Positions 2,611 through 23,632 of a DNA stretch of 28,596 nucleotides are shown here, piece after piece (within the stretch, counting starts at the first letter, position 1; each line of letters starts with the position of its first letter). The DNA comes from a virus. A program made the position numbers and the translations under genes. The stretch covers positions 1 through 28,596 of the IMG/VR virus record IMGVR_UViG_3300050821_005722. One strand, written 5' to 3'. A model generated the notes under the pieces. It saw only the letters and a program-made list of their open reading frames with translations, did no database searches and had not been told where the DNA came from.

Positions 2611-3684
2611 TTAGTAGTTCCATGGTCCATATGGCTGAGCAGGAGAAATCGGGTTATAGCTGTACCCGGTATCCATGACGTTGCTCTGCGGTACGAATCC
2701 CCAATCATCCTCTTGGTTCGCGCCAAACATAATCGCGTTGGTCAATGCCTTCTGCCAGAGATTGTATTCCATCTCGAACTTCGCTCGCACTTCCTTGAGC
2801 GGCGAGCGGCGATAGCATTGCGCGAAGAAGCCTTGTTTGAAGAATGTGTAGAAATCATCTGGAATCGGGTCGAGTGTAGTCGAAAGCGATTTGATGAAGG
2901 GTACTTTCATCTGGCCTACGGGCTGGATGAGCCACACCGGACCTGTCTGGCACGGCAGCGGATTGATCCTATAGCCTTGGCCTTTCGGATTAACGGCGGT
3001 CCATTTGACCGTCCCATCCGTCACAACAGTAGAGACAATGCTCTGATTTTGCACGGTTGGAAAAGTCGGATTGAGATTCGTAAGAAATGGATTTGTATTC
3101 CCACACGTTCCGTATTGCGTGAGCGTCCACAGATTCCCGAAGGCGTCTTTGATCGCCGTAGTCGGATTGATCGGCTGGGCAATCGCAGTTCTGGGGTCCG
3201 TATATACTACACCGGGGCCGGGTTGCGTTTGTCCTGTCGGAGTCAATTGTGTCGATGCGCCCCAAGTTCCTGCCTGCATAGTGTCGTTCGACATCCAGCA
3301 AATACGGGCGTCGTTATTCGTTGAAAGGTTGAATGTAATAAGCAAGTCTCGTTTGACGATGACCGGATACACGGGTTTTGGGAATTGGGTAGAACTGAAA
3401 TTTACAGCCGTGCAACTTTCTAGCCAGCCGACGTTCACTTGATTCGGGATGAAATAATCCTGTTGCCAACTATTGATGAAGAACGGCGCTTCTATAGCCC
3501 GGTTCCATTTCCAGTTGAAGGGCTGGCCGTTTGGCCCGCCTGCCAGCATGTTCTGCATTACATCGTTCGCGATTGATAGTGCAGGGGCGTCGGAGAATCC
3601 GCCAGCGGGAATTGCTGGTGCGAGTTCACCATTGCTGCGAGCATCGTCCACCAAATCCTGTAGCTGTATCGAACTGTTTCCCAT
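2611..3684 (-). CDS. Putative tail or baseplate structural protein
   Basis: The 357-residue protein starts at ATG 3684 after TAGGAGATTT. It shares conserved N-terminal (QPFNWKWNR) and C-terminal (DPIPDDFYTFFKQGF) blocks with the product of the next gene downstream, so the two form a duplicated pair. Its middle carries a different module, about residues 160-245, with the pattern DAFGNLWTLTQYGTCG then VTDGTVKWTAVNP. This 'DGTVxW' repeat type is common in exposed beta domains of phage tail proteins. A strong hairpin terminator lies just upstream of the gene, so its dose relative to the genes before it may be set by read-through. The exact position in the virion is not known. Confidence 0.75.
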   Translation of the reverse strand: MGNSSIQLQDLVDDARSNGELAPAIPAGGFSDAPALSIANDVMQNMLAGGPNGQPFNWKWNRAIEAPFFINSWQQDYFIPNQVNVGWLESCTAVNFSSTQFPKPVYPVIVKRDLLITFNLSTNNDARICWMSNDTMQAGTWGASTQLTPTGQTQPGPGVVYTDPRTAIAQPINPTTAIKDAFGNLWTLTQYGTCGNTNPFLTNLNPTFPTVQNQSIVSTVVTDGTVKWTAVNPKGQGYRINPLPCQTGPVWLIQPVGQMKVPFIKSLSTTLDPIPDDFYTFFKQGFFAQCYRRSPLKEVRAKFEMEYNLWQKALTNAIMFGANQEDDWGFVPQSNVMDTGYSYNPISPAQPYGPWNY

Positions 3685-3813: not shown

Positions 3814-3978
3814 TTATCTGGGCTTTCGTTTTTCAGTGCCCGCGAGTTCGTTCACTCGCGTCACGAAGGCGGGGTTCGTAGTCACATGAATCTTATACAC
3901 ATCAGAAGACATGCGATCTACATCTGCGCTAGTAAGAAGCGCAACTTGGTCGGCGGTCAAAGATTGTACTTGGCTCAT
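3814..3978 (-). CDS. 54-residue protein carrying the scaffold-type C-terminal motif
   Basis: This short gene has ATG at 3978 behind TGAGGTAAC and ends with TAA at 3816-3814; the previous gene's stop is one base away. The product begins MSQVQSLTADQVALL and ends in a basic tail, TEKRKPR. Residues about 20-46 match the C-terminal end of the 330-residue putative scaffold (7752-8744). The core TNPAFVxRVNEL is shared, with a similar M-S/P-S-D/E lead-in and a basic end in both. Such a stand-alone copy could bind the same capsid or portal surface as the scaffold tail. That is inference. The remaining 136 bases to the next gene hold only the terminator hairpin. Confidence 0.75.
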   Translation of the reverse strand: MSQVQSLTADQVALLTSADVDRMSSDVYKIHVTTNPAFVTRVNELAGTEKRKPR

Positions 3979-3979
3979 G

Positions 3980-4627
3980 TTACCTCAGGTTGGTCGATTT
4001 CACGTGCTGGCGATAGTCGTTCGTCGCGTCCACCCACTGCTCAGACTTCTCATCCCACTTGCTGAATTTGCAAATGACAGAGCCGGACGGGGTGTTATTA
4101 GTTTCGAAGGCAACTGCCGTACGATAATCTGCTTCGGCCTTTGTGAACTTCTCTGCTGAGAATGTACCATCCACCGGAGCCACTTGCTTGCTCTTTTCGT
4201 TGAAGTAGAAATTCTCTTTAACTGGCGGAAGCCACGTCTTACCACAACGGAGGCAGCGAACCCAGAAGTCGCCGTTAATCATCTGGTGCTTGATTACTGC
4301 GAACTGCGGACTGTTACCGCCCGTGCTGAGCACTTGCAGGTTGCGTTGCGAGACCACTCCACCCTTCTTGTGGGTACAGGCGCTCTGCTTCGCTTCGTCT
4401 TCACGCTTCTGGGCGGCGAACACCTTACCTTGCTGCTCGCGGTCCATCGTTTTCTGCTTCTGCTTAGTGAGTCGGTCCGCGATAGTGCCGCGTTTTTCTT
4501 CGATGCTCAACTCACGTTCTTGTTTTTGGAGTTCAAGATCGGCCAACTGTGCACGCTTGATACTCAGTTCAATCGCTGCAATTTCCTCAGCAGCGTTGGA
4601 ATAAACCTTCTTTGTGTCTTCACTCAT
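3980..4627 (-). CDS. Coiled-coil protein with a Cys/His zinc-ribbon-like centre
   Basis: The 215-residue product starts at ATG 4627 after TAGGAGGAAGT. Residues about 10-82 are strongly charged and heptad-like (Glu, Lys, Gln and Leu rich), predicting a long coiled coil. This is followed by C84-x-H86 and, after about 38 residues, C125-x2-C128 in the context RCLRCGKTW, with H114 nearby, which looks like a metal-binding ribbon. The C-terminal third includes short beta-like stretches and aromatic residues. It lies between the tail and head gene groups in the late operon. I do not recognise a named family. A structural or assembly role is inferred from location, and a nucleic-acid-binding role would also fit a zinc ribbon. 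Confidence 0.75.
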   Translation of the reverse strand: MSEDTKKVYSNAAEEIAAIELSIKRAQLADLELQKQERELSIEEKRGTIADRLTKQKQKTMDREQQGKVFAAQKREDEAKQSACTHKKGGVVSQRNLQVLSTGGNSPQFAVIKHQMINGDFWVRCLRCGKTWLPPVKENFYFNEKSKQVAPVDGTFSAEKFTKAEADYRTAVAFETNNTPSGSVICKFSKWDEKSEQWVDATNDYRQHVKSTNLR

Positions 4628-6555: not shown

Positions 6556-6574
6556 ATTTCTCTTTTCTGAAAGA

Positions 6575-6630
6575 GCCGTTGCTCATTTCGATTGTCAATA
6601 TTTCAGAGTACTGGTCACAGGAACAACGGC
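6575..6630. repeat. 7-bp inverted repeat in the capsid-decoration gap
   Basis: The 151-base gap between the capsid gene and the Ig-like gene (6556-6706) holds no convincing gene. GCCGTTG at 6575-6581 and CAACGGC at 6624-6630 are inverted copies 42 bases apart. A smaller CTCTTT/AAAGAG pair lies at 6560-6575, beside the ATG of the Ig-like gene. These may form mRNA structure that sets expression after the very abundant capsid gene, but no T-run or promoter is seen. Confidence 0.3.
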
Positions 6631-6706
6631 ATACCTGCTTTGAATGAAATTCAGATGGGCAGTCCGACTTACTGGCCGCGCGAACCGCCCTTATTCTGAA
6701 AGTCAA

Positions 6707-7738
6707 TTAGCTGATCGCGCTCGCGGCGTCGATCTGGCGCTGACGGATGGTCGTGTCAGGCCCGAGCGAAGTCGTGAAGTGCACGCGATAGCTGGTCCAT
6801 CCGGGGATCAACCCTTCAGGATCGGCAACAGTTGGCTCTGCGTTCTGCACAATGTTGCACTCGATGTTACGCCACTCACCGTCACCGAATCCGGTGTCAC
6901 CCTTTGCTCCGAGGTTGATGGAGAAGATACCATCGCGACCGAAGATGTAGGTGCGGAGTGCGGTCAGACCTGTGATGCCTTGGAAGTTCGAGGTCTGGGT
7001 GACCAAGTTGGTCTGGTAGAAGTCCACGCCCGTAGAAGGCAGCGTGATAACTTCGGTCAAATCAACCGAGACGAGACTGTCCATCTTCATCTGGCCCACC
7101 GGAGTGTGCTTCAAGATGTCGATTGGGGAATCGTTGCTGTTGTCAGCCAACACATCACCCAAAGCGAACGGATGGATCACGCCTGCGAAGCTCTTGGAGC
7201 CTTCGTCGAACGGACGCACACTGCGACCCGCCAGCGACTGAACGCTGTTACGAATCTGGGAGAGCGACAGAGCGGTGAAGCTGGAAGTGCTTGAAGCGGC
7301 CAGTTGGGTCAGAACACTGGCGTCGATGCTCGATGCACCGTCAGCGGTTGCACGCACGAGTGCGGACAACGATTCGCCCAGACGATACGACATTTCACGA
7401 GCAACGTTCTCGACGGTGTTGTCAATCGCGGTAGCGAGAGACAGCGAAGAGAAGTTCGCGTAATCGGCGTACTCACCGATTGTCGCTGTGGTGGTCAGAA
7501 CGGAAACGCTCAGAGACGAACCAACCGTCCCTTCCGTGGTCTGCGTGGTGTTAGCAGCCAACGGAACGTACATGAACATCTCGTACTGGTTACCGGAGTT
7601 CATCGGCAGATCGAGACGTTCCGAGCATGCGACGAATGGGGTCTGTGCCTTCAAGTTCTCACGGAACTTCTTGTCATAAAACTTTACCGTGGACTGAGGC
7701 AGGTTGGAAAGCTGGTTACCCGCTGGGGAGAAAGCCAT
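6707..7738 (-). CDS. Major capsid protein, N4-gp56 family type
   Basis: The 343-residue product starts at ATG 7738 after CAGGTAAACAAAT. It has the expected length and order of the N4-gp56 capsid family (HK97 fold). An N-terminal arm is followed by LPMNSGNQYEMFMYVPLA, then TTEGTVGSSLSVSVLT, then an ATIGEYADYANFSSLS strand, and a long helix (VENVAREMSYRLGESLSALV) that would be the capsid spine. The C-terminal part has RTYIFGRDGIFSINLG and GWTSYRVHFTT strands. It assembles the head shell in the host cytoplasm. The putative scaffold gene lies directly upstream and portal and terminase further upstream, the usual head-gene order. Identification is from family pattern recognition, not a database search. 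Confidence 0.88.
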   Translation of the reverse strand: MAFSPAGNQLSNLPQSTVKFYDKKFRENLKAQTPFVACSERLDLPMNSGNQYEMFMYVPLAANTTQTTEGTVGSSLSVSVLTTTATIGEYADYANFSSLSLATAIDNTVENVAREMSYRLGESLSALVRATADGASSIDASVLTQLAASSTSSFTALSLSQIRNSVQSLAGRSVRPFDEGSKSFAGVIHPFALGDVLADNSNDSPIDILKHTPVGQMKMDSLVSVDLTEVITLPSTGVDFYQTNLVTQTSNFQGITGLTALRTYIFGRDGIFSINLGAKGDTGFGDGEWRNIECNIVQNAEPTVADPEGLIPGWTSYRVHFTTSLGPDTTIRQRQIDAASAIS

Positions 7739-7751
7739 ATTTGTTTACCTG

Positions 7752-8744
7752 TTATCGACGAGGACGTGGGGGCCGGGTTGCTTCCAACTCGTTCACACGT
7801 TTGACAAACGCTGGGTTTGTCATAATCTGCTTCCGATAATCTTCGGAAGGCATATCGTCGATCTTTTTCAAAGTCAGTGATTCCATCTCGGTTGTAGGCA
7901 TCGCACCACCCACCGGGGCAATACGATTATTCAAACCTGACGGAACATGACTCTGTCGCTTTTCTTGCGGCGGCGGAACTTCGTTAATTCGAACGGGTTC
8001 CACTGCTACAGCCTGCGGTTCCGGCTGTATTTCCGCCACGCGAGTCACAACGGATGTGACTACTGGCGGAACCTCACGCACGATAGGAGAAGAAAGAAGC
8101 AATCCGGCTTCTTCCATCTTTGCTTGGGCAAATTCAAAATTCTTAACGGATGGCTTTAGCCCTGTCTTTGTCATCCATTCACAAACTGTGTTGATATTTT
8201 CCGGGCACGAATAAAATTCTGGGTGCCTTTCGAGCCAAACCTCAGCATTCTGGCGAGCAAGAATCTGCTGCGTCTGTTGCTGTTGTTCGTTCAATGTGTC
8301 ACGTAACTGCGCGGGAGGAACGCCGAGCGAGGACTCTAGGAGTCGGTCGCGGGCGGACTCAAACTTCGCCGGATCATTCATGTCCTGTGAAATCGCATAC
8401 CGTTCTTCCGTAGTAAGCGGCTTCTCTTTGAATTGGATGAATGTCGAGGTCCGTTCCAAATCTTCAGGCAGGGCATCTACCTCAGGGGTTCCGAGGCGAG
8501 CCTTGCGTTTTACATCACGCATTCCGAGGATAGAATTGCTATGAGCCTTTTCTAACTTCTCAACCAACTCTTCCATGGTGGTATAACTGAATCGTTGTTT
8601 GCCACCGACGGGCCTATTGTGCTCGTCTACAGGCTGATACTCGTGCCATTTCACTTCGGGCGCTGCTGGCGCAACGGCCACGGGCGCTTCTACGACGGTT
8701 GCACGTTCAATTAACTCTGTGGAAAACATCTGTGTTGTACTCAT
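7752..8744 (-). CDS. Putative capsid scaffolding protein
   Basis: I start the 330-residue protein at ATG 8744 (MSTTQMF), which has a CTTGGAGGAGG site; an in-frame ATG five codons earlier would fall inside that site. The sequence is hydrophilic, rich in Glu, Gln, Pro and Val. It has a Gln-rich helix (TLNEQQQQTQQILARQ, about residues 150-170), a predicted folded segment around ERHPEFYSCPENINTVCEW, and a long Pro/Val linker. Its C-terminal motif MTNPAFVKRVNELE is followed by a basic end (RPPRPRR). A helical, low-complexity protein with a basic C-terminal binding element just before the major capsid gene fits a scaffold. The C-terminal motif recurs alone in the 3814-3978 gene. Scaffold identity is inference from position and composition. 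Confidence 0.65.
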   Translation of the reverse strand: MSTTQMFSTELIERATVVEAPVAVAPAAPEVKWHEYQPVDEHNRPVGGKQRFSYTTMEELVEKLEKAHSNSILGMRDVKRKARLGTPEVDALPEDLERTSTFIQFKEKPLTTEERYAISQDMNDPAKFESARDRLLESSLGVPPAQLRDTLNEQQQQTQQILARQNAEVWLERHPEFYSCPENINTVCEWMTKTGLKPSVKNFEFAQAKMEEAGLLLSSPIVREVPPVVTSVVTRVAEIQPEPQAVAVEPVRINEVPPPQEKRQSHVPSGLNNRIAPVGGAMPTTEMESLTLKKIDDMPSEDYRKQIMTNPAFVKRVNELEATRPPRPRR

Positions 8745-14699: not shown

Positions 14700-15188
14700 C
14701 TATCCTTTTGGGGCAATCTCGTCCCACATCTTTCGGGCTATATACTCCATTCCGTGACCGGGGTCATACGGACTATAAAGCGTCTTGAAAATTTTCTTGG
14801 CCCTGTTGAAAGGTTGTGGCAACTCACCGATGGATCGCATGAACAACATGGCCGTTGTCGGGCCTCTACTATGTCCCGCGTTGCAGTGTACAAGTATCTT
14901 TTTACCCTGTGACCACATCTCTTGCGCGAATTCTATACCCTGAAGAATCATCTTATCTGAGATAAAGTCGGGGTCATCTGTGTCGATCAAATTCATCGCA
15001 GCGTGGTCACCTTGTCGAATGAACAAATAGTTTTTGTCCTTAGGGGCACCCATAGTCGTATAACCAAGCATCTCGCGGTGACCATCCGGACCGTCTTTTG
15101 CGGCGGTAAGTCTGGCATAACCACGTCTCTTCGCCTCAGGCACGTCTTCGTCACTGCCTACGTATAGATTCGGAATTACTTGTTCCAT
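14700..15188 (-). CDS. Dual-specificity (tyrosine) phosphatase-like protein
   Basis: The 162-residue protein starts at ATG 15188 after TTTGAGGAGAACGT. It has the HCx5R phosphatase loop as VHCNAGHSRGPT, with H101, nucleophile C102 and R108, so all catalytic loop residues are present. The N-terminal EQVIPNLYVGSDEDV matches the usual 'I-x-x-x-L-Y-[LIV]-G' start of dual-specificity phosphatases, and candidate general acids are D69-D74. The family removes phosphate from Tyr/Ser/Thr of proteins or from other substrates such as RNA ends or phosphoinositides. Size fits a single catalytic domain without extra modules. It is embedded among late packaging genes, which is an unexpected place for a signalling enzyme. 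Its substrate cannot be read from sequence. Confidence 0.85.
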   Translation of the reverse strand: MEQVIPNLYVGSDEDVPEAKRRGYARLTAAKDGPDGHREMLGYTTMGAPKDKNYLFIRQGDHAAMNLIDTDDPDFISDKMILQGIEFAQEMWSQGKKILVHCNAGHSRGPTTAMLFMRSIGELPQPFNRAKKIFKTLYSPYDPGHGMEYIARKMWDEIAPKG

Positions 15189-16910: not shown

Positions 16911-17621
16911 CTAGCGGGGATGCCTGTCCCACCAATTTGTTATTAGCCCGGTCGAATCGTATGTCATCTTGCGGGGCAGCAACAGTTCCCCCGTCCATGG
17001 AGGGCTGTTGAATATTCTTTCAAACTCCTGAAGTTTTTGTGCTTGTGTATGCGTAGAATCAAGATGCACGCACCGAGCTATCTTGACCGAAGGATTTTCT
17101 GTAGTACGCTGGTGGAGTGAGTACCCATCAGCATTTGTCAGTTGGATGCCCTTCTCGCGTAAAACTTGAGCCACCCATTTCTCATCATCAAAGTCGTGAG
17201 GGAGCGAATGTACAGCTACCGCTTCCATACTCTTTCTGCTGAGGATATAGCAAAAACCAAATGTAACCGGACATGGGCCGGGTCGATTCATACCCCCGGA
17301 AAAATCGTGCTTGTCAAAACCGGAATCTAAAAACGCTTGTGGTCGAAGCACGACATCGTCGTCGATTTTTAACAGATGGTCGTATTCCCTCGATAAAGCC
17401 CATCTAGTTATAGACTGGATTTTAGCGGGCAAATCTTTATATGCATCCGAACAATCTAACTCCACAATTCCATCCGAATCGGAAATCGGATCGCCTTTTC
17501 CTACGAAAAAGAAAATGTCTGCGCGATCTTTCGGAACTTGAGGAAGCCATGTTTTTCTAATTACATCCCGCCAATCGGCACGATGCCTAGCATTGACTAT
17601 AGCTATTAGGGTCTTAGGCAT
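16911..17621 (-). CDS. GT31-like (galactosyltransferase family) glycosyltransferase with intact DxD
   Basis: The 236-residue protein starts at ATG 17621, overlapping the upstream gene by 8 bases, with AAGGGG ahead. It shows the GT31 order: an N-terminal strand (KTLIAIVNA), the R-x(3)-IRKTWL block near residues 18-26, a strand and spacer with CSDAYKDL, then the metal-binding motif KIDDDVV with D87-D89, then FSGGMNRPGPCPVTFG and a late acidic segment HDFDDEKWV. GT31 enzymes use a UDP-sugar and usually make beta-1,3 links. No membrane anchor is visible, so it would act in the cytoplasm. It is the last glycan gene in the transcript and has two diverged relatives in the island, 19513-20154 and 22879-23556. 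Confidence 0.82.
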   Translation of the reverse strand: MPKTLIAIVNARHRADWRDVIRKTWLPQVPKDRADIFFFVGKGDPISDSDGIVELDCSDAYKDLPAKIQSITRWALSREYDHLLKIDDDVVLRPQAFLDSGFDKHDFSGGMNRPGPCPVTFGFCYILSRKSMEAVAVHSLPHDFDDEKWVAQVLREKGIQLTNADGYSLHQRTTENPSVKIARCVHLDSTHTQAQKLQEFERIFNSPPWTGELLLPRKMTYDSTGLITNWWDRHPR

Positions 17622-18453
17622 TGAGTAACCCCTTGTTTACCTCGGAGAAATATTCTCTGGTAAACAGTTTGAACCGTTCCTGATTCGCCCGAAAGTATGG
17701 GGGAGTCCTATCATCTCCGGTCGGTATGTACTGTCCGTTTCCTATACCTGAGCGATGGAACAAATCAACGCCTTCGATGATATCTTGCGCGATCTGTCGA
17801 TCAGAGCGTGATTGGATGTATGGGTGAAGGTCATCATGCGAGATTGCGTATACCTTTTCGCGAATTTTCTCTACGCTTGGGTGAAAGTAGCTCCCGTGCC
17901 ATCCGCCATTTTCTATGGATGGAAAGTTCGGGTCCAAATCACCTACCCCGCCGCGAAAATTAATCATGCCTCCGCGTAAAGCGATGTCGCCTATCGAGCC
18001 AATTCTGGCTCGTGACCACGGTCGCCCGCCATAGTTCATGAGATTGTTGTAGTTGTAGTAAAACGTGTACTGCTTCAGATTTCGCAGCCCCATCGCGGGG
18101 AGATACGACTTTACTACTTCAGGGTTTGGTATCTCGTCCAAGTCAGAAAAAGACAAAGTGTCCGCTGGGTCTGTAGTCACGCCGTAAATCAAACGTATCA
18201 GAGCCTCGCGGGGACTGGCTTCATATGTCCACCCATGTCCATTGTGCGGAAGGCTCATCGACGCAAACACGATCTTGTGATTCCACTTCTCAAAAAGTTG
18301 ACGGTTTTGCTGGTAGTGATAGGGCTTCGGCTGGCCCATGAAAGTCTTATCTGTCTCTACGAAGACAAACTTGTCAACCACTTCATCTAGTTGACCGAGT
18401 CGCAATTCAAGAAGGTCGAGTTCGTTATTGAAGATGAACGCATCAATTACCAT
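17614..18453 (-). CDS. GT17-like glycosyltransferase
   Basis: The 279-residue product starts at ATG 18453 after TAGGAGGGGTT. Its N-terminus has the hallmark of GT17 proteins (beta-1,4-N-acetylglucosaminyltransferase family): FNNELDLLELRLGQL, followed by VDKFVFVETDKTFMG and PKPYHY. The motif FSDLDEIP near residue 100 supplies the acidic residues expected for sugar-nucleotide binding, and GGWHGSYF and KVYAISH segments follow. Eukaryotic GT17 members add a bisecting GlcNAc; bacterial and phage members are poorly characterised, so donor and acceptor are unknown. There is no membrane helix. It is cotranscribed with methyltransferases and the terminal GT31-like gene, pointing to a multi-sugar chain. 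Confidence 0.85.
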   Translation of the reverse strand: MVIDAFIFNNELDLLELRLGQLDEVVDKFVFVETDKTFMGQPKPYHYQQNRQLFEKWNHKIVFASMSLPHNGHGWTYEASPREALIRLIYGVTTDPADTLSFSDLDEIPNPEVVKSYLPAMGLRNLKQYTFYYNYNNLMNYGGRPWSRARIGSIGDIALRGGMINFRGGVGDLDPNFPSIENGGWHGSYFHPSVEKIREKVYAISHDDLHPYIQSRSDRQIAQDIIEGVDLFHRSGIGNGQYIPTGDDRTPPYFRANQERFKLFTREYFSEVNKGLLNA

Positions 18454-18461
18454 AACCCCTC

Positions 18462-19019
18462 CTATTTACGAATCACGATCAGTCGGTCGTCTCGGGTGCT
18501 GAGGTCCATGTTAAACTCAGCTACTTCGCATACGTATTTCGGCAAACCAGATATCACTCTTCCCGGTTCCGCTACATCCTCAATTACATAAAGCCCGCCG
18601 TCATTTACAAGCGGCATGATTACGTTGGCGGATAGTATCTGGTGTTCGGGATTGTGAGAACCGTCATCTACTACAAGATCAAAACCTTTTCCGATTGAAA
18701 AGAGTGCCCGGTTCAATGAGTCTGTGTCGCCTTGGTTACAGTCGAAGCACTTTATGTTTCCCTCATTGATTAGGATGCTGGGATTACAATCGAAACCAAA
18801 AATCTCCGCATCAGGATAATAGTCCTGCCACATGAGCAGACTTGCGCCCGTGACGTACCCCGTCCCCATGTGACACATGGTCGTCGGACATCCGATGCCT
18901 ATTTCTAAAATCGTTTTTATTTCCCTACCCGCGAGCAGTTGCGAATAGTAGGGAGTGTAATTGTGGTGCCCCCATTTGTCGGACTTCCACTTAATAGCCA
19001 GTTCACTCAACCTGTCCAT
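18462..19019 (-). CDS. SAM-dependent methyltransferase (class I), second of a pair
   Basis: I start the 185-residue protein at ATG 19019 (MDRLSELAIKW), which overlaps the upstream stop as TGATG and follows GTGGAGGGG. The longer in-frame extension to 19124 lies inside the upstream gene. Motif I is ILEIGIGCP at about residues 37-45, post-I acidic residue FGFDCNP, and the later FDLVVDDGSHNPEHQ and GGLYVIEDV match the class I fold found in sugar O-methyltransferases and related enzymes. It would use S-adenosylmethionine to methylate a small acceptor or sugar. Placement among glycosyltransferases suggests sugar methylation, for example capping of the glycan; this is inference. Confidence 0.82.
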   Translation of the reverse strand: MDRLSELAIKWKSDKWGHHNYTPYYSQLLAGREIKTILEIGIGCPTTMCHMGTGYVTGASLLMWQDYYPDAEIFGFDCNPSILINEGNIKCFDCNQGDTDSLNRALFSIGKGFDLVVDDGSHNPEHQILSANVIMPLVNDGGLYVIEDVAEPGRVISGLPKYVCEVAEFNMDLSTRDDRLIVIRK

Positions 19020-19549
19020 CACCCCTCCACATCCCATTTGTCGGGATTGAATACTACAATCCCCGTACCCGTATAGTGCCCTATCGCAGTGACATCTATT
19101 TTCTTCAGAGTAATTGATTCCCAAAAGGAAGTCATCCCCTTATCGAGTTTCCAGTAAATGTCATCGAGGATAAGAATACCCTCGAAGGAACGACGACGTA
19201 GTTCGTCAAAAAATTTCTGCTCTTTGTCTCCGTCATGCGGAGATACGTCCAGCAAAACCAAATCGGCGCTGGCAATTTCCGCTATGCGTTCAAGTTCTAC
19301 GTGTAGAACACGGGTGACGTTTTTGGGAAGTGCCAACGTCACGAAATCTATTTCGTCATATGTCACTACTCGGACTTTCGGATTCCGCGCTAACGCAACC
19401 GCAGAATACCCTTGATACGTTCCTACATCAGCTAGAACGGAATCATCCGGCATCTGGAGTGAGAGAGATGAGAGCAATGCGTAATGCTCGCCGTACCCAT
19501 TGATCTTTGGGTTTATAGTCCGGTCGAGTCTGAGTGTGAACTTAGCCAT
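19019..19549 (-). CDS. SAM-dependent methyltransferase (class I), first of a pair
   Basis: The 176-residue product starts at ATG 19549, 37 bases inside the upstream gene, with TGGGGAGCATCGAAG upstream. It has motif I as LADVGTYQGYSAVALA, an acidic strand end (VVTYDEID), motif IV-like LVLLDVSPHDGDKEQ and EGILILDDIYW, a layout seen in Methyltransf_24-like O-methyltransferases. It differs clearly in sequence from the next methyltransferase, so this looks like two different enzymes rather than a recent duplication. The stop overlaps the next ATG by one base. The target is likely the same glycan product. Confidence 0.8.
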   Translation of the reverse strand: MAKFTLRLDRTINPKINGYGEHYALLSSLSLQMPDDSVLADVGTYQGYSAVALARNPKVRVVTYDEIDFVTLALPKNVTRVLHVELERIAEIASADLVLLDVSPHDGDKEQKFFDELRRRSFEGILILDDIYWKLDKGMTSFWESITLKKIDVTAIGHYTGTGIVVFNPDKWDVEG

Positions 19550-20154
19550 CTTCGATGCTCCCCATACATCACATCTGCCGTATATCCGCCGGGGATGGGG
19601 CTAAGATGATTTGAAACGATGTCATTCGTCTTCAACGGTCCCGGCCCGAGATATCGAAAGCGGTCATCGTGTTGCGGTGCTATTCCATTTTGCCGCATGA
19701 TGTCCGCGACAAAGCAATCTTCATTGCTGTATGATTCGGGTGAGTCTACTACCAGTTTCGCAGCAGAGGCGCTAAGAAAGTATCCGGGTCCGCCTTGGCA
19801 GTATGCTCTGCCGGGGCAGTTGTGCGCCGTCGTTCCGTAATACGGATAATTTCCAAAACCGCAATCACGTAAACGCTCTGGGCGAGCATATAGATCAGGA
19901 AAACAAGCGAACACATAATCATAATCGTGCTCCAAGGCCCACCGCAATTTCAATTTCGTCTTGTCTGTTAGTGCAAAGTATTCGTCCGGACACGAGATGT
20001 TGATTACATCTTCCCTTGGCTGGGAATTGCGACCGTGGAAAAATTTGTAGTCCCATCCTGTGGATAAGTCCGGCAACCATGTATCTCGTAAGGGTTGGTT
20101 GAGTCCTGAGTCTTCGTATGCTTGGCAACTACTAAGCGCAACCAGTACTTTCAT
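19513..20154 (-). CDS. GT31-like protein with a broken DxD motif
   Basis: The 213-residue protein starts at ATG 20154 with TGAGGTGGT ahead, 23 bases inside the upstream gene. It follows the GT31 plan ([42 protein letters not shown]) and resembles the 22879-23556 product in particular. Where the relatives have DDD, it has F85-P86-D87 in VFACFPDLYARPERL, so only the last acidic residue remains. A metal-dependent GT31 reaction would be impaired. It may be a non-catalytic partner, an acceptor-binding subunit, or an enzyme that uses another way to bind the donor. Otherwise the frame is intact, which argues against simple decay. Confidence 0.75.
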   Translation of the reverse strand: MKVLVALSSCQAYEDSGLNQPLRDTWLPDLSTGWDYKFFHGRNSQPREDVINISCPDEYFALTDKTKLKLRWALEHDYDYVFACFPDLYARPERLRDCGFGNYPYYGTTAHNCPGRAYCQGGPGYFLSASAAKLVVDSPESYSNEDCFVADIMRQNGIAPQHDDRFRYLGPGPLKTNDIVSNHLSPIPGGYTADVMYGEHRRWLSSHSDSTGL

Positions 20155-21064
20155 ACCACCTCACGGTTTTGGATAACCCTGACCGCAAATCCGTTTGAGC
20201 CTTGAACCCAAAAGCGTTTGCCCGCGTTACATCTAGGCATCGCCGGGGTTGACCGTCCGGTTTGCAAGTATTGTAAACTGTGCCTCCCGCATATCCGGTT
20301 GCATACTTAATCTCTTGAATCAAATCATTGATCGAAATCTCAGAACCAGTCCCAAGATTTACCGGATCGGAAGATTCATATTTCTGTGTAGCGAGTACAA
20401 TTCCCTCCGCGCAATCGTCTACATAAAGGAATTCACGAGATGCGTTCCCCGAACCCCATACTGAAATGTTGGGGGCGTTGCACGCTCGTGCTTCTATGCA
20501 CTTCCGTATCAAAGCAGGAATTACGTGAGAAGTCTCGGAATTGAAATTGTCGTACGGCCCGTACAAATTTACCGGGATGACCGTGATCGCGTTCAGGTTA
20601 TACTGTGCACGATAAGCGCGACACATTTCCATCAAGGTCTTCTTCGCGATGCCGTAAGGAGCGTTCGTCTCCTCAGGATAACCATTCCAGATATCCGTCT
20701 CTTTAAAAGGAACTGGACAATACTTCGGATATGAACACACCGTTCCTACTTGAACAAACTTTTGGACCTTAAAATCTTTGGCCGCGTCGATCATCTCAGC
20801 GCCCATGACAAGATTCTCGTATATGAATCGGCCCGGTTCTTTCTGGTTTGCGCCGATACCACCACAGACCGCTGCAAGATGTATCACAACTTCTGGTTCG
20901 AAGATTTCGTATACGTGACGCACGTCTTCTCTGCGGCGAAGATCAAAGCTGCGAGACCGGATAACAGATACATCCGCACCCAAGTCCGTGAGTTTATTTA
21001 CGATATGTCTTCCAAGAAATCCCGCGCCACCAGTCACTACAATTTTCTTATTGAGTAGTTCCAA
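20132..21064 (-). CDS. fcl: GDP-L-fucose synthase
   Basis: The 310-residue enzyme turns GDP-4-keto-6-deoxymannose into GDP-L-fucose by epimerisation and NADPH reduction. It begins at TTG 21064, supported by GTGGAGGCGGAAC upstream; no ATG precedes the NADP motif [10 protein letters not shown] (residues 9-18). Other hallmarks are [11 protein letters not shown] near residue 70, VCSYPKYCP with the conserved Cys, the YGIAKK catalytic Tyr and Lys, [16 protein letters not shown] with the conserved His, REFLYVDD, and DGQPRRCLD near the end. It overlaps the dehydratase gene by 17 bases, so the two successive enzymes are coupled. Length is close to the usual 310-325 residues. Confidence 0.93.
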
Positions 21065-22001
21065 GTTCCGCCTCCACCATGAGATGTATCAGATCAGAGA
21101 ACTTCGTCTTCGGTTCCCATCCTAAAATCGCCTTGGCTTTCGATGCGTCTCCTTGTAGGATGTCTACTTCGGTAGCCCGGTAGTATCTCGGGTCCACCGT
21201 GACGTACTGCCCCCAATCAAGGCCCACGTGATCGAATGCGACATCGAGCAACTCTCGAATTGTATGCGTCTCGCCTGTTGCGATAACAAAGTCATCCGGG
21301 TGCGTCTGTTGTAGCATCAACCACATTGCTTCAACATATTCTTTCGCGTAACCCCAATCACGTTTCGCGTCGAGGTTTCCTAGAGCGAGAGTTTTTTGGA
21401 GGCCGCGACTGATGTTTACTGCCGCTTTCACGATCTTGCGGGTCACGAAGGTTTCGCCGCGTCGGGGAGACTCGTGATTAAACAGAATTCCATTACACGC
21501 GTACAGCCCTTGTTCGCGGGCGTTCACCGTATACCAATAACCGAATAGTTTCGCGATCCCGTAAGGGCTGCGCGGATAGAAAGGCGTGTTTTCAGTCTGG
21601 GGTGTTTCTAAAACTTTTCCATACAGTTCACTCGAACTCGCCTGATAAAACTTCGCATCCGGGCAATGTGCTCGCACTGCCTCTATCATTCGGAGTGTGC
21701 CCATTGCGTCCACGTCTACCGTGTACTCTGGACAATCGAAAGATACCCGTACATGTGACTGTGCACCCAGATTATAAATCTCCTGAGGCTTTATGCTGCT
21801 GAGCAGAGAACCGAGCGATGTGGCGTCGGTAAGATCACCATAATGAAGGTGCAAGTCTCCGAAGATGTGGTCAATACGGGCCGTGTTGAAAGAACTAGAA
21901 CGCCGAATAATTCCATGCACTTCGTAACCTTTGGACAAGAGTAGTTCAGAAAGATAGGAGCCATCCTGTCCCGTAATTCCCGTGACCAAAGCTGTCGGCA
22001 T
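21048..22001 (-). CDS. gmd: GDP-mannose 4,6-dehydratase
   Basis: The 317-residue enzyme carries out the first committed step of GDP-fucose (and GDP-rhamnose) synthesis, converting GDP-mannose to GDP-4-keto-6-deoxymannose with NADP. ATG at 22001 follows GTGAGGAGAT. The sequence is strongly typical: [47 protein letters not shown], the catalytic SSSELYG (Ser and Glu) and SPYGIAK (Tyr and Lys), then [18 protein letters not shown] and [16 protein letters not shown]. Length fits the shorter bacterial and viral forms (about 320, against about 370 in E. coli). Host GDP-mannose would be the substrate. Its neighbour makes the final GDP-L-fucose. Confidence 0.96.
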
Positions 22002-22007
22002 ATCTCC

Positions 22008-22892
22008 TCACTTTTTCTTGTTATGAATTCCCTCAGTAATGTAGTTCTCGATCAAATCCCATTGGTGCACACTCTTCAGTGCGATGTTGTAATTCTCTTC
22101 AATGGCAGATAACCGTTCTGTGTACAACCGGGGGTTGATCTGTCTCAATCGAGTCTTTAACTGTTCCAGATTTTCAAAAGTGAGAAAACCTTCGGGGTTA
22201 AAACCAAACTTGGTGAGGTCCGGACAACCGCAATAGATAGGAAACGTTTTGGCTATGAAACAGTCTACTATTTTCTCAGTGTAATATCCGGCGTACTGGC
22301 AATTCTCTACCGCGATGCTGAATTGTACAGGTTCGAGAGTCACTCGCTTATCGTCAATGCGAGGAGGTGATCGGTGTTTCTGTACGTGTAGAAGTTCCGT
22401 GGATTCGTCCGGCGATACAGTCGCGGGTAGCCAATCGAAAATTTCTTGGCGTAGTTTGTGACCCGGCAACCATCCTTTCGAACTGGTCAAAAAGGATACT
22501 GCGAATTTTTTCGCGGATATGTCACAAGGAGAATAATTAGCTACTGAAGGGAAAAATTCAGGAGAGAAGTGTGCGGAGACATCCCCACTCTTCTTGCCGA
22601 TCCAACTGCATGCTGACTCGGTAAGATATCGTGCGTTTGGACACTGTGCTAACACCCTCTCGTCGAACGCCAGAATCAAATCATAAAACTTGTGATTACG
22701 AATCAAAACGTTTATGACATCGAGTACGGCGGGCGGCTCGCATTGGTGATGAACCTTGAACCAAGAGTCGTCAGAGAAATTGAAACCGTCATCCCACGTT
22801 ATCGAAACAGATTCTGGTCGATCCAGAAAATTGTGGCTGCAATCTACATTGAAACCGATTGAGCTAGATGGGAAACACTTAGGATGCGGCAT
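22008..22892 (-). CDS. GT10-like (alpha-1,3-fucosyltransferase family) glycosyltransferase
   Basis: The 294-residue protein starts at ATG 22892 behind GCGAGGAGCC, overlapping the upstream gene by 14 bases. Its C-terminal half carries the GT10 donor-binding core: VQFSIAVENCQYAGYYTEK, followed by IVDCFIAKTFPIYCG and NPEGFLTFENLEQL. In the family these Glu, Tyr, Thr-Glu-Lys and Pro-Ile-Tyr positions contact GDP-fucose. The N-terminal half is less conserved, as expected for the acceptor domain. The gene lies directly before gmd and fcl, so the phage provides both donor and transferase. The enzyme would be cytoplasmic; no membrane segment is seen. Acceptor unknown. Confidence 0.85.
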   Translation of the reverse strand: MPHPKCFPSSSIGFNVDCSHNFLDRPESVSITWDDGFNFSDDSWFKVHHQCEPPAVLDVINVLIRNHKFYDLILAFDERVLAQCPNARYLTESACSWIGKKSGDVSAHFSPEFFPSVANYSPCDISAKKFAVSFLTSSKGWLPGHKLRQEIFDWLPATVSPDESTELLHVQKHRSPPRIDDKRVTLEPVQFSIAVENCQYAGYYTEKIVDCFIAKTFPIYCGCPDLTKFGFNPEGFLTFENLEQLKTRLRQINPRLYTERLSAIEENYNIALKSVHQWDLIENYITEGIHNKKK

Positions 22893-23556
22893 GGCTCCTC
22901 GCGTGATGTAATCTCATTTGGTCAGGACTTAGCGCATGGATAGTCAGGTAGTTGTTTTCTGTCTCCAACTCTCCATCGCTAATATAGGGGTTCGTTCTTG
23001 TCGGTTTGACAAGGTGATATCTGTTATCAAAAGCACAACGAATCTGTTGTTTCTTTAATGCTTCGCCAATCCAGCGATCCTCTGCCCAAGTTCCTGCTGG
23101 ACTTTTATCCAGTATCTGCATTGCCCGCTTGCTCAACCAATAAGTAAAGCCCGGACAAAAATATGCCTTCAATCCATCTAAAGGCTCTCCTCTATCGCTG
23201 CCTGTGTAATCTGCGGTCGGCACATTCGCCATGAGACGGTCATAGTACACGTACACGTCGTCATCGACCTTACAAACATAATCGTATCCGTTGTCGAGAG
23301 CATAGCGAATCAGCGCCCGAATTTTTTCCGCGCTGTGATGGTAGTCGTCAGGAGCATTGAGAAAAACTGTATCACTTTTTCTCAACGCTTCATTACCGCG
23401 ACCTTTGAAAATTTTGTAATCGCCTGTGACATCCTTCAACCAAGAATCTCTTATTCCAGATTCCCGGTCTACCGGAGTGCGGATAAACCAGTCTCGGAAT
23501 TCGGTAGTAGTGTACTGATATGAATGACACGAAAATATCGCGAGTAGGATTTTCAT
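22879..23556 (-). CDS. GT31-like glycosyltransferase, first gene of the glycan island
   Basis: I start the 225-residue protein at ATG 23556 (MKILLAIFSCHSYQ), which has TCGGAGGAAT ahead and aligns with the start of its relative at 20154; an upstream in-frame extension to 23619 runs through a hairpin. Features in order: KILLAIFSC strand, GIRDSWLKD (the R-x-x-W block), DYKIFKGRGN, YALDNGYDYVCKVDDDVYV with D98-D100, then GLKAYFCPGFTYWLSKRA and a WAEDRWIGEAL segment with acidic residues for catalysis. This is the GT31 pattern. It follows the structured non-coding region and may be the first product of the late glycan transcript. Confidence 0.82.
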   Translation of the reverse strand: MKILLAIFSCHSYQYTTTEFRDWFIRTPVDRESGIRDSWLKDVTGDYKIFKGRGNEALRKSDTVFLNAPDDYHHSAEKIRALIRYALDNGYDYVCKVDDDVYVYYDRLMANVPTADYTGSDRGEPLDGLKAYFCPGFTYWLSKRAMQILDKSPAGTWAEDRWIGEALKKQQIRCAFDNRYHLVKPTRTNPYISDGELETENNYLTIHALSPDQMRLHHARSHAAS

Positions 23557-23574
23557 ATTCCTCCGAAATGAAGA

Positions 23575-23608
23575 ATGCCCACTCAACGGCTGGCACCGGA
23601 GTGGGCAT
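23575..23608 (-). repeat. 10-bp perfect hairpin before the first glycosyltransferase
   Basis: ATGCCCACTC at 23575-23584 pairs with GAGTGGGCAT at 23599-23608, with a 14-base loop. Minus-strand bases after it are TCTTCATTTCGGAGGAAT and then the ATG, so the hairpin ends 18 bases before the start. With a weak T-rich tail it could be an attenuator or a structure that guards the ribosome binding site. Confidence 0.5.
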
Positions 23609-23632
23609 CGTTTTGGCACTGGGTGCCGATGT

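Follow-up and report, generated by a model that had tools for sequence, protein, structure and literature searches.

A free-standing gene for the C-terminal module of a putative scaffolding protein in the head gene cluster of a soil phage

Introduction

The scaffolding protein of phage 80alpha binds the coat protein via a C-terminal helix and hook, and these elements are copied by CpmB, a protein with a dimerisation domain and an RIIK hook encoded by the satellite SaPI1 (a staphylococcal pathogenicity island), to compete for the coat (PMC5644958). A small separate protein that copies the coat-binding end of a scaffold is therefore already known from satellites. In phage P22, basic residues of a C-terminal helix-turn-helix of the scaffolding protein (gp8 271-300) meet the acidic N-arm of the coat protein (PMC9965877), and in phage Pa193 a helix-turn-helix fragment of gp24, a putative scaffold, remains in the virion, on the inside of the five-fold vertices (PMC11042391). 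The internal proteins of phage T4 have a capsid targeting sequence as their sole common feature (PMC3012670).

The present analysis concerns a window of 28,596 bases, which is a whole virus record from a soil phage. The window contains a free-standing gene (3814..3978 (-)) for a protein of 54 amino acids (5.98 kDa), MSQVQSLTADQVALLTSADVDRMSSDVYKIHVTTNPAFVTRVNELAGTEKRKPR, which had been likened in a first-pass annotation to the C-terminal tail of the putative scaffolding protein of the same phage. This protein may be a copy of the capsid-gripping module of the scaffold that acts as an accessory or competing scaffold element, a tentative reading to which we give a probability of about 0.42. Like CpmB, it is small, separately encoded and has an element in common with the C-terminus of a phage scaffold, where we infer coat binding. 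It differs in being encoded by the phage's own head operon (CpmB is satellite-encoded), in consisting of a three-helix module from which the RIIK motif is absent rather than of an RIIK hook and a dimerisation domain, and in that relatives of the window phage also have an N-terminal copy in the scaffold. With P22 it shares a basic helical element at the C-terminus of an otherwise flexible scaffold, whereas neither a free gene nor an N-terminal copy is described for P22 in the literature searched. The gp24 fragment of Pa193 is similar as an inner-capsid-bound helix-turn-helix of a putative scaffold, with an EMSGE turn that looks alike, but it is internal to gp24 and not a free gene. In a short search of open-access literature, no phage-encoded, head-operon version with N-terminally fused alternates was found.

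For comparison, 80 viral loci were collected via capsid searches and more via further searches, and about 97 related phage loci (handles beginning with L) were compared. Module copies in scaffolds were detected with an iterated HMM built from the scaffold tail.

Head gene neighbourhood

The free gene sits in the head gene cluster with the terminase, portal, scaffold and capsid genes, which supports a late, head-gene context for it. Directly upstream lies a gene for 215 amino acids (3980..4627 (-)), and on the other side a gene for 357 amino acids (2611..3684 (-)), whose product is a structural-protein homologue (Tunturi_3 gp12); these are the conserved left and right neighbours, respectively, of the slot. 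The major capsid protein (6707..7738 (-); phrog_1357, E=1e-16) has a pI of 4.7 and is presumed to be the module's partner. It shares 82% identity with gp6 of Tunturiibacter phage Tunturi_3, a podovirus of 97.6 kb with a head of 77 nm (PMC11924767). By analogy with Tunturi_3, the hosts of the free-gene clade would be Acidobacteriota. Tunturi_3 is the only cultured phage sharing capsid and portal, and the free gene is absent there; cultured phages searched directly with the 54-residue protein yielded no match. The portal of the window matches the Pfam SU10 portal family, and the order portal, small gene, scaffold, capsid and Ig-like gene is identical to that of SU10 (Escherichia phage, Kuravirus).

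The putative scaffolding protein (7752..8744 (-)) is encoded directly upstream of the capsid gene in this SU10-like arrangement and has 330 amino acids, presuming the ATG at 8744 as its start (a TTG start would make 335). It had no match in the family libraries, and a profile comparison with the SU10 scaffold (phrog_9013), which has a different C-terminus without the module, gave no similarity; the designation as scaffold is thus based on position, an acidic helical core and disordered linkers. Without its last 40 residues the protein has a pI of 5.1, and these last 40 residues, the C-terminal module (7755..7874 (-)), have a pI of 10.1.

Elsewhere in the window, a sugar gene cluster (16911-23619 (-)) encodes a GDP-mannose 4,6-dehydratase, an epimerase (perhaps GDP-fucose synthase), a weak match to family 10 fucosyltransferases, a family 17 glycosyltransferase and three galactosyltransferase-like enzymes. 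A dual-specificity phosphatase match under the Pfam cut-off (14700-15188 (-); E=1.6e-6) carries the signature HCNAGHSRG.

The 54-residue gene and its match to the scaffold tail

Residues 15-54 of the small protein (module and basic tail) were aligned by BLASTP, ungapped, with residues 290-329 of the scaffold at E=1e-11 (20/40 identical, 25/40 positive). The Smith-Waterman score was 98, compared with 48 for the top of 2000 shuffles and 39 for the second-ranking ORF of the window, which rules out chance similarity. The proposed relationship is thereby borne out, far above chance. The stretch TNPAFVxRVNEL, which the first-pass annotation had pointed out, is indeed common to both proteins, but the similarity is not confined to this motif and spans about 40 residues. 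A recent DNA repeat as the source of the two copies is ruled out as well, because DNA identity over the aligned part is only 52.5%; this points to an old duplication kept at the protein level.

A GAGG ribosome-binding site of the free gene falls within the final codons of the 215-aa gene, the stop of which is located one base ahead of the free gene's ATG; this arrangement indicates coupled translation. Between the window and L002 the free gene has a dN of 0.09 and a dS of 1.2, and between the window and L081, L095, L102 and L007 a dN of 0.35-0.48 with a dS of 2.2 or saturated. Since dN is far below dS, the gene is under purifying selection in the relatives, and judged by its sequence the ORF is a real gene. 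Its shortness and its absence from most relatives would fit a decaying or chance ORF with no product, but the strong purifying selection, the Shine-Dalgarno site and the one slot kept across distant relatives make this very improbable.

Sequence, predicted fold and charge of the module

What the two proteins share is a module of approximately 36 residues with the consensus TLADIDxMPSDEYKKRLxxxPxFxxxVxxLE, in which T16, M23, Y28, F38, V42 and L45 (numbering of the 54-residue protein) are nearly fixed. In an AlphaFold2 model of the L020 scaffold, which carries two copies, confident three-helix units (pLDDT about 86-96) were predicted at both ends; between them lies a helical core, connected to each unit through a disordered linker (about 36-99 and 286-360). 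The same helices were predicted for the free 54-residue protein, with a pLDDT of 87-88 over residues 11-40. No solved structure resembling the module or the 54-residue protein was found by sequence or fold, and the module is assigned to no named family. Regarding the P22 scaffold domain, no phage scaffold was among the PDB sequence or Foldseek matches, a test with little power for a fold this short. Kinship with DUF4355 (80alpha gp46) was rejected, as only 1/66 modules matched (E=0.0084), which is what chance predicts. Homology to Pa193 gp24, at which the EMSGE turn had hinted, was rejected at an hhalign probability of <1% against PB1 ORF21, which served as the counterpart of gp24.

The copies differ in charge. 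Free copies of the window clade retain a tail charge of +3 to +4, and the N-terminal copies are acidic and without a basic tail. The mean core charge is -2.2 in the free copies versus -0.1 in the C-terminal copies; an identical binding site is thus not assured, and the sites may differ. This bears on the reading that the module serves as a docking tag for a non-capsid partner (portal, scaffold core, 215-aa or 357-aa protein) which the free copy would recruit or regulate. The acidic N-terminal copies agree with it, in that a single site need not serve all copies, as does the constant position of the free gene, which adjoins the 215-aa gene and precedes the 357-aa gene. This reading is nevertheless judged unlikely, as only at the scaffold C-terminus, classically the end that binds coat, is the module nearly universal, and the 215-aa and 357-aa genes are retained in genomes without a free copy.

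Distribution among relatives

The module forms the C-terminus of almost all scaffolds in the family (90 loci, 68 distinct sequences). The single exception is the L033 scaffold (6566-7903), which has an unrelated C-terminus and only a weak N-terminal module match. A search for the motif in related phages, proposed together with the original observation, showed the module also at the N-terminus of many scaffolds and the free gene again in a distant branch. About 13 distinct scaffolds have another copy, which starts at their first residues and is attached by a disordered tether. Carriers of a free gene flanked by the 215-aa and 357-aa genes are the window, L002, L004, L006, L007, L081, L091-L093, L095 and L102. 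In a deeply diverged branch (L114, L117, L118, L120-L123), short genes with the module motif immediately follow the 215-aa homologue; with an earlier HMM, built without those sequences, most of them scored E about 1e-6 to 4e-4 (0.11 for L123).

Across all loci, the module was C-terminal only in 64, C-terminal and N-terminal in 14, C-terminal and free in 13, and free with the scaffold off the contig in 4. The lone locus with all three kinds is L004, where the N-terminal match is the start of the free gene fused to a second copy of the 215-aa gene. This second, partial 215-aa gene (L004 12195-13554) has its start joined in frame with the front half of the free module gene (TSADVDRMSSDVYRTQGKVFAAQ...), probably through local tandem duplication or an assembly join. 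This duplication aside, the second copy is N-terminal or free, never both in one genome. Among 28 whole records, N-terminal copies occurred in 6, free copies in 5 and both together in 0; the probability by chance alone is about 0.27 (hypergeometric), so mutual exclusion is not claimed to be significant. No further convincing module copies were found in these 28 records (viral ones up to 99 kb), the sole extra match being 13 residues in the L025 record (E=0.0018). No free gene was seen beside a scaffold lacking the tail: the tail is present in every free-gene genome with the scaffold on the contig, a weak test because almost all scaffolds of the family carry it.

Most near-complete relatives have no second copy of either kind, and the function is thus dispensable or clade-specific. 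The same scarcity bears on the main rival to an accessory or competing scaffold element, namely that the free module is a minor inner-capsid component that stays in the mature head (e.g., at the vertices) as a cement or plug once the scaffold leaves. The persistence of the Pa193 fragment in the virion (PMC11042391) provides a precedent, and the free copy, devoid of the scaffold core, is encoded among virion genes, but the free gene is missing from most relatives, and we regard this reading as somewhat unlikely.

The free copies of L081, L095 and L102 have additional N-terminal residues, and those of L117-L123 differ in their C-terminal part. Such extensions, like the T4 internal proteins that share only their capsid targeting sequence (PMC3012670), would be compatible with a targeting tag carrying cargo into the head, or with a decoy that blocks capsid-hijacking satellites. 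The window protein, however, scarcely exceeds the module and has no cargo domain, and no satellite is known here, which makes a tag or decoy quite improbable.

Two further observations concern the same loci. The 215-aa gene family is present twice, flanking a 235-aa gene, in L016, L001, L014 and others. The capsid gene is in pieces, tens to hundreds of bases apart, in L058, L062, L064, L066, L074, L081, L095 and L121, which suggests introns or inserted elements; no Rfam family was matched in seven of these loci.

Origin of the free copies

In the module tree, the free copies of the window clade (window, L002, L081, L095, L102) group together with a support of 0.94, and this group is embedded in the C-terminal copies belonging to that clade (support 0.77-0.89). 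Because of this placement and the retention of a basic tail of the RKPR/PPRQR type, these copies were probably derived from the scaffold C-terminus within that lineage. The distant free genes L117-L123 form a separate group (support 0.985), and L007/L091 are placed apart with poor resolution. It is possible that free genes arose independently in the same slot; with a module of just about 36 residues, the tree takes this no further.

Proposed function

Position, charge and architecture make it most likely that the module binds the capsid protein, on its inner face, and the pI values of the scaffold tail (10.1) and the capsid protein (4.7) are consistent with electrostatic binding. As an accessory or competing scaffold element, the 54-residue protein would probably be produced late, its translation coupled to that of the head genes, and would bind the same class of capsid-protein site as the scaffold tail, minus the scaffold core. 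By filling procapsid sites or competing for them, it may tune scaffold occupancy, scaffold release or shell geometry, in principle as CpmB does. An N-terminal module copy would make the scaffold bivalent; the free copy would be an untethered binder, serving as accessory scaffold or competitor. A broader proposal, which we consider doubtful, is that these phages have, as a built-in part, a second coat-binding element resembling CpmB, which in the course of evolution switches place between the scaffold N-terminus and an independent late gene, and that a self-encoded competitor tunes assembly.

Implications for capsid assembly

Because relatives carry the module as a separate gene or at the other end of the scaffold, it is likely, as far as sequences can tell, to be an element that can be reused in different places to hold on to the growing capsid. 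Should it indeed bind the capsid protein, these phages would provide a natural series of scaffolds with one module, with two, or with one and a free copy, so that both the number of coat-binding elements and the way they are tethered differ along the series. The effect of scaffold valency and of free competitors on capsid size, fidelity and scaffold release would then become testable, and the series would suggest that the capsid-hijacking trick of satellites has a counterpart within the phage's own assembly programme.
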